From Gottfriedia acidiceleris (GTDB lineage Bacteria > Bacillota > Bacilli > Bacillales > Bacillaceae_G): DNA of 64,000 nt. The position numbers were made by a program, and so were the translations under genes. The notes under the pieces are model-generated. The model did no database searches. It worked only from the letters and a program-made list of their open reading frames with translations, and was not told the DNA's origin. The stretch is from positions 62,001 to 126,000 of the forward strand of contig NZ_NESS01000002.1 of assembly GCF_002128425.1 (NCBI RefSeq). The letters run 5' to 3'. This document shows, one piece after another, positions 14,551 to 15,286 of the stretch. Position 1 is the stretch's first letter. Each line of letters opens with the position of its first letter.

Positions 14551-14556
14551 TTAGAT

Positions 14557-14592
14557 GAGTTCTGACAATATTTTTAGTGTCAGAGCTCTTTT
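14557..14592 (+). terminator. Intrinsic terminator after the NiCoT gene
   Basis: Arms GAGTTCTGACA and TGTCAGAGCTC pair over 11 positions with one G-U wobble, enclose a 10-base loop and are followed by TTTT. It lies 6 bases after the transporter stop and marks the right end of the cobalamin cluster transcript. Confidence 0.85.
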
Positions 14593-14593
14593 G

Positions 14594-14689
14594 TAAGGGT
14601 GACAAAACGATATTAACTCTTTTAAAATCCCTTAAGGTCCTCGTGCTATCGGTCTGTGTTCTATCCTTACAAGAGGCTTTGTCCCCTTA
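14594..14689. repeat. Long-range inverted repeat of unknown function
   Basis: TAAGGGTGACAAA at 14594-14606 pairs with TTTGTCCCCTTA at 14678-14689 over 12 bases with a single bulged T. The 70-odd enclosed bases contain smaller complementary stretches (ACTCTT with AAGAGG). The structure overlaps the end of the preceding terminator region and has no ORF. It may be a structured RNA or the end of a vanished mobile element; I cannot assign it. Confidence 0.5.
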
Positions 14690-14691
14690 TA

Positions 14692-14707
14692 AAGAATGTA
14701 CATTCTT
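14692..14707. repeat. Perfect 16-bp palindrome
   Basis: AAGAATGTACATTCTT is a perfect 16-base dyad three bases after the long inverted repeat. It could be a protein-binding operator or a recombination-related sequence. No gene start lies within 190 bases on either strand. Confidence 0.6.
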
Positions 14708-14883
14708 CCTTACAATCTTTACTCTTAATATTTTAGTTTGTCTATTAAAATAAAGTGGTCTTATTTTATTTATTAACAAGTAAATAGATTTTTAAATAGT
14801 GACTTTATTCAATAAATCACATGAGAAATTGAAATTAATAAATAGATTGATCCTAAAAATATATTAAGGGTTTTGTTTATTAA

Positions 14884-15063
14884 CAATATGGAAGAGATAA
14901 GTTGGAATTACCGATTTCCGAAATTGTTAGTTTACGTCAAAACGACTTAACATTTGAAGAAATTGCAGCTACCTTAAAAGGATTTAGATATATCGTTCCA
15001 AAGGTAACTGTCAATAGAAGGTATAAAGAACAGGTGAAAGAAATCTCCAATATTGAAAGCTAA
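14884..15063 (+). pseudogene. yneB: 3' fragment of a YneB-like resolvase gene
   Basis: From the stop at 14881-14883, the frame reads about 59 codons to TAA 15061-15063. It contains [28 protein letters not shown] and [10 protein letters not shown], which I recognise as the C-terminal helix-turn-helix end of the site-specific recombinase homologue YneB (Hin-type DNA-binding tail). Intact YneB is around 220 residues with an N-terminal serine-recombinase domain that is absent here. In B. subtilis yneB lies between yneA and ynzC, and ynzC follows here. The fragment has no good start codon or ribosome binding site, so it is a remnant left by rearrangement at this junction. Confidence 0.78.
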
Positions 15064-15286
15064 TGCAATTTATTGTAAGATGAGATACATTGAATAGAAT
15101 ATCAGACTGCTACGATCAATTGCATTCTTCCTTGAATAGCCTGCCTGCGGTGCTTATAACAATCTTAGATAACGGCGCTTTCTCATCAGACTTCGCGCAT
15201 AGAAAGACATATTACAATCTGTCTGATTATCAAAGCTATGGATCTAACAATGAATAGATAATATTTAAATAAAGGAGAGGTTACTA

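Follow-up and report, generated by a model that had tools for sequence, protein, structure and literature searches.

SCC elements carry exchangeable cargo at one fixed chromosomal gene and encode a serine recombinase within the element. In Bacillus cereus, according to the account in PMC5595907, the gene for a small protein, gerE, is split by gin, a 28.6 kb non-phage element with serine recombinases inside. A small serine recombinase of the resolvase/invertase-like type is given as the integrase of phiRSM of Ralstonia (PMC3816273). The islands in tRNA and tmRNA genes dealt with by Islander split their target, carry a sequence that restores it and leave a displaced fragment that marks the far end (PMC4383910). 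Both serine-recombinase elements in protein genes and the use of a small serine recombinase as integrase are already known (PMC5595907, PMC3816273).

YneB has been described as SOS-induced, in an operon with YneA, in B. subtilis, and yneB of B. pumilus is given in a listing under lexA/SOS (PMC3896406, PMC6051672); in the passages of these sources that deal with it, the protein is called only SOS-induced or resolvase-like (PMC6051672, PMC3896406). Our searches of open-licence papers gave no precedent for a YneB-family island that targets yneB. For the locus of Gottfriedia acidiceleris described here we favor, with moderate confidence, a site-specific island of ~29 kb in native yneB, with the island's own YneB as the probable integrase and the host YneB replaced.

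Native yneB locus and its two halves

The window (the whole stretch of DNA that was analysed, 64,000 nt) covers positions 62001-126000 of contig C12 (536 kb) in a 4.77 Mb draft genome of 45 contigs (G000). The comparison set contained 13 genomes of Gottfriedia, which are soil species that resemble Bacillus, G000 counted. The features of the locus are listed below, with coordinates in the window unless the contig is given.

C12:46708-47355, reverse strand: lexA, on the same contig as the window
C12:47496 to ~47670: 5' stub of native yneB, with a frameshift and a stop
C12:47773-48432: complete yneB of the island (219 aa), first gene after the left end
1-14592 (start outside the window, at ~C12:55748), forward strand: cobalamin block of the island (Pfam matches)
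11686-12654, forward strand: CbiB/CobD, in the cobalamin block (Pfam)
12673-13536, forward strand: GHMP kinase, in the cobalamin block (Pfam)
13750-14550, forward strand: NicO-type Ni/Co transporter, in the cobalamin block (Pfam)
14632-14863, forward strand: right arm of the island, non-coding, common to carriers
14889-15063, forward strand: 3' remnant of native yneB (DNA-binding tail), pseudogene (blastn, alignment, nonsynonymous excess)
15287-15526, forward strand: ynzC (DUF896; PF05979, 94.5 bits), native flank, in the same order in native relatives
15714-17717, forward strand: tkt, transketolase, native flank, with a 94-100% identical copy in 12 of the 13 genomes of the genus

A preliminary description of the window had read a frame behind the cobalamin genes as the C terminus of a truncated YneB followed by ynzC and tkt, and this reading was borne out. 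An ORF with a TTG start is present in G000 at 14902-15063, and its translation aligns with the C terminus of a full-length YneB that G000 encodes at another place (56% identity, 48 aa aligned, E-value 1.8e-12). At the DNA level, the match to G009, a relative with native yneB, resumes at 14889 and covers ynzC and tkt as well, with 94.2% identity over 4135 bp. The one genome of the genus without a close copy of tkt is G004, where only a 60% paralog was found. Compared with the intact native yneB genes of G009, G006 and G011, to which it also matches by blastn, the remnant shows 6-8 synonymous and 8-9 nonsynonymous differences over 53 codons, while the three natives differ among themselves at the same codons by 5-8 synonymous and 2-3 nonsynonymous changes. 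This nonsynonymous excess over the natives' own divergence indicates that the remnant is undergoing decay; the junction next to it is eroded in G000.

The change in composition noted across the junction was confirmed: from 1 to 13.5 kb the GC content lies between 0.39 and 0.48, for the most part above 0.42, and at 14.5-16 kb it is ~0.30. It had also been proposed that the GC-rich cobalamin DNA had replaced or split the lexA side of the locus. The splitting of yneB stands and the replacement does not, as lexA is present ~29 kb upstream on contig C12, together with its LexA-box promoter and the 5' yneB stub. With these upstream of the island and the 3' remnant beyond its right arm, native yneB is split by an island of ~29 kb and lexA is retained. 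A distance of 417 bp, which includes the native stub, separates the island yneB from lexA, and ynzC and tkt are ~29 kb away beyond the island. The LexA-box-like site of G000 is CAAACGTTAGTTCT, at ~C12:47436-47449; such a site follows the lexA start by 76-83 bp in all 13 genomes, with one or two mismatches to the consensus.

In the SOS locus of Bacillus the gene order is lexA-yneA-yneB-ynzC. A displaced yneA, suggested earlier for this locus, was not borne out: a YneA query, taken from a relative in another genus with a YneA-like ORF, gave no match in any of the 13 Gottfriedia genomes and matched in all four control genomes from other genera. In eight island-free relatives no ORF of at least 60 aa lies wholly within the lexA-yneB gap. 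The gap is 140 bp in four named native Gottfriedia and ~440-560 bp in other genera showing a YneA-like ORF (with a LysM-like motif, by eye). With no such ORF in the gap of the natives and the query unmatched in the 13 genomes, displacement of yneA by the island was dropped.

Elsewhere in the window, a T-box leader (RF00230, 102.7 bits) is present at 54235-54414.

Insertion point, cargo and a second docking site

An island-type YneB, 91-100% identical to the G000 copy, is encoded in five of the 13 genomes (G000, G003, G005, G010 and G012). The eight non-carriers each have one intact native YneB, 54-57% identical to the island protein. The same split arrangement is found on one contig in G005, G010 and G012 and as two contig pieces in G003. 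With G009 as reference, the left blastn match of G012 to native DNA extends to base 6191 and the right one begins at 6183; for G005 the respective bases are 6179 and 6183, and the right junction of G003 is the same as that of G005. Alignment identified the extra blastn bases at the junctions as A-rich chance matches, and placed the crossover no more than ~6 bp from ATTCATAATATGAAAATAAAAAGAGG, at the transition from the catalytic domain to the DNA-binding tail (yneB codons ~130-135). The junctions that survive (left in two carriers, right in three) all fall within ~6 bp of one point; those eroded by deletions are both in G000, both in G010 and the left one in G003. The alignment gives at most ~3 bp (TGA) of sequence common to the two island ends, and no more than ~3 bp common to the arms and the native target. 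By eye, neither an inverted repeat common to the arms and the native target nor a recognition motif shared by the island ends and the native site was seen.

Carriers do not form a clade in the tree of the parC and second transketolase region (9414 columns, AU p 4e-46), and the well-supported (starred) branches of this tree force at least three changes. Trees of the flanks interleave carriers with natives, with few well-supported branches. In G012 the yneB halves have no indel and no premature stop up to both junctions; they differ from the genes of G009, G006 and G011 by 20-25 synonymous and 6-7 nonsynonymous changes, where the neutral expectation is 27% synonymous, much as these three natives differ among themselves (14-25 and 2-8, respectively). 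In the remaining four carriers, one or both halves contain indels. The undecayed halves of G012 and the indels in the others point to a recent insertion in G012 and to older ones, at the same site, in the other carriers. Since carriers are not a clade, and G012 combines undecayed halves with a different cargo, at least two insertions into one site have probably occurred. Separate insertions at one point, with the site intact in eight relatives, fit a site-specific island. Among 80 named tkt loci, 49 have a full-length yneB (with lexA beside it in all 49), two have a split one (both Gottfriedia) and 29 have no yneB in the stretch examined; thus, no split was seen outside the genus in this sample.

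The ~29 kb island of G000 starts with the complete second yneB, after which come a GH31 glycosidase, a GntR/UTRA regulator, cobalamin riboswitches and the cobalamin (cob) cluster. The islands of G005 and G010 hold YneB and cob, and all their ORFs of at least 90 aa (21 and 20, respectively) lie within DNA shared with the G000 island. In G003, one contig has a G000-like left part and a second one has cob, and a contig gap lies between them. The G012 island carries YneB, GH31, a sorbose-type PTS, GntR and a GH2 beta-galactosidase-like protein, and further a sugar ABC transporter, a two-component system and galK-galE-galT-aldose epimerase; cob genes are absent from it. The cob cluster is one of several exchangeable cargoes at the yneB site. 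A Pfam scan of all 24 G000 island ORFs of at least 90 aa and, besides its YneB, all 26 G012 island ORFs of at least 80 aa detected YneB as the sole recombinase, no conjugation or phage structural genes and no recognizable transfer genes. The right end of the G012 island is 83-85% identical in G000, G003 and G005, with a short piece in G010, and each of these copies adjoins a yneB 3' remnant. The left and right arms recur at yneB in carriers; other matches in the 13 genomes are short and weak (E-values 2.8e-5 to 7.2e-4).

Two tandem cobalamin riboswitches (RF00174) lie ahead of the cob cluster (L004 19908 to L005 94 and L005 261-443), the first of them cut by the edge between these two loci. 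The CobU-like ORF at window positions 10981-11370 encodes 129 aa and its counterpart in G009 and G012 has 178 aa, so that cobU may be truncated or frameshifted in G000.

The 3' end of a ybjQ gene (PF01906) is a second docking site. CbiB is encoded in six of the 13 genomes: at yneB in G000, G003, G005 and G010, and at the ybjQ 3' end in G009 and G012. In the latter two, homology of the cob block stops on the right at one common base and on the left no more than 30 bp from one common point. Identities of cob and core are 94.4% and 94.4% for G000-G005, and 96.0% and 96.1% for G009-G012. In the full table, which is without the cob genes of G003, cob and core diverge to similar degrees except in pairs with G010, where cob divergence is greater. 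By this agreement, the cob block is about as old as the clade, and it has used two docking sites.

The ybjQ site of G012 (C18:6.6-64 kb; L173, L182, L183, L154, L155) holds four tandem blocks, named by eye as ~27 kb pectin/uronate-like, 7 kb lsr-like, 21 kb cob and a further 2 kb, with copies of the ybjQ end, 43-68 bp long, between them. In G009 (C9; L152, L153) the site is occupied by cob; a further such locus is at C12:416 kb in G000 (L184), and the site looks empty in G005 (L187) and G006 (L185). By eye, no integrase was seen among the ORFs at the ybjQ site, and no likeness was seen in its repeats either.

The island-borne YneB and the origin of the island

The protein encoded by the island yneB matches the YneB family NF049883 with 329 bits (cutoff 175) and the resolvase domain PF00239 with 87.7 bits, and an alignment with Tn3 resolvase shows the RVS and RLGR motifs in both. 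By these matches, it is a small serine recombinase with its catalytic motifs kept. Large serine integrases are much longer proteins, with further recombinase and zinc-ribbon domains; the island YneB, with 219 aa and a match to the resolvase N-terminal domain only, is not one of them. In a tree of 83 sequences it falls within chromosomal YneBs as sister to the Priestia endophytica protein (SH-aLRT 99) and outside the clade of native Gottfriedia sequences, a grouping that marks the island gene as a xenolog of the housekeeping type. The G000 and G012 copies differ by 42 synonymous and 20 nonsynonymous changes, and the gene looks to be under purifying selection. No relatives of it were found in phage records or in IMG/VR, and the four in plasmid records were all below 60% identity. 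With the housekeeping grouping, these results make the island YneB look unlike a dedicated mobile integrase. A phage or plasmid origin of the element was dropped on the same database results. Of 397 Bacillales genomes sampled, 374 have YneB-family matches, 345 of them above the curated cutoff; the survey, with a shortened list of matches, gives prevalence only, and split copies may exist elsewhere.

In the mechanism that we propose, the ends of the element would recombine with the yneB target through the element's own YneB, and an incoming island would retire the host YneB while supplying a foreign full-length one. The island YneB lies downstream of the native LexA-box promoter and in the same direction, and because of this position its expression could be SOS-inducible; no terminator-like site was found between the LexA box and the island yneB in G000. 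The sequences themselves show the split, the replacement, the common insertion point, insertions that differ in age and the LexA box; from these we infer the role of the island-borne YneB as integrase, the SOS control of the island and its mobility. The spare yneB beside the break suggests that YneB moves or maintains islands. The G000 copy is probably immobile now, since both its junctions are eroded.

Some of the same facts can be read differently. Another recombinase, acting in trans or since lost, may have integrated an island specific for the yneB site, with the second yneB as a cargo retained for restoring the function lost through the insertion. The housekeeping position of the island YneB in the tree agrees with this, and integration in trans is made plausible by the ybjQ-site blocks of the same genus, which show no integrase by eye. 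However, the scanned island ORFs contain no second recombinase, and one would expect at least 6 bp of identical core after the action of a tyrosine integrase, whereas at most ~3 bp are shared at the ends. On balance we regard an origin of this kind as rather unlikely. It is quite improbable, in our estimate, that there was one old insertion, with the patchy distribution and the fresh-looking copy of G012 produced by homologous exchange between species. Such exchange would agree with a cob divergence that tracks the core outside G010, with one substitution common to the 5' remnants of G000, G003 and G010, and with the counts near the right junction, where G010 and (about tied) G000 are closest to carrier G012. 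Yet carriers are separated on the core tree and mixed with natives in the flank trees (few branches starred there). In the alignment close to the left junction, four of the five carriers have a native as their nearest row and G010 has a tie; close to the right junction, G012, G005 and G003 have a native as theirs. Distances between carriers at these places are inflated by pseudogene decay. In addition, the G012 remnants are undecayed up to both junctions, and the island yneB of G012 has 90.4-91.7% identity against 93.6-95.7% in core genes. Finally, G000 is a draft of 45 contigs, which would allow for a misassembly, or else an ordinary yneB pseudogene could stand beside an unrelated cobalamin cluster. 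We give this hardly any credence: the contig is 536 kb long, and the architecture recurs on single contigs of three other assemblies (G005, G010 and G012) and in pieces in a fourth (G003), for which reason misassembly was dropped.

To return to a site-specific island with its own YneB as integrase, a wider form of this reading would make YneB, nearly universal at the SOS locus in Bacillales, an active recombinase with its site in yneB; elements with a foreign yneB would insert there, retire the host gene, take over the SOS promoter and dock interchangeable metabolic operons, and DNA damage would trigger the exchange of this cargo. We consider this wider form unlikely. A yneB travelling at the edge of an island that targets yneB offers a handle on YneB, with a defined target, defined ends and one candidate enzyme. 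The locus also shows genes for vitamin B12, galactose and polysaccharide entering and leaving the genus via fixed docking sites, and a broken host gene replaced by a foreign homologue at such a site.

Comparison with known systems

The recombinases CcrA/B of SCC elements are large serine recombinases and the rlmH target stays intact; the catalytic domain of the island YneB matches CcrB weakly (45.9 bits, cutoff 900). The gin element, as presented in PMC5595907, has three serine recombinases, of which GirC was shown to act, as was the factor GirX, a 9-bp consensus at its att sites, and a gerE gene that is reconstituted during sporulation. In contrast, the Gottfriedia island has one small YneB-family protein and no clear core, and its target is replaced by a full-length homologue. 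Unlike the island, phiRSM is a filamentous phage with a tRNA target, and the account in PMC3816273 mentions no homologue of a target gene. The islands of PMC4383910 use tyrosine integrases and have the tRNA or tmRNA restored, whereas in Gottfriedia a whole foreign protein gene replaces the target. With the Bacillus SOS locus, the Gottfriedia locus shares a LexA-box-like promoter and the neighbourhood of lexA, yneB, ynzC and tkt; it differs in that no yneA was found and that, in carriers, native yneB is split with a xenologous yneB standing in for it.
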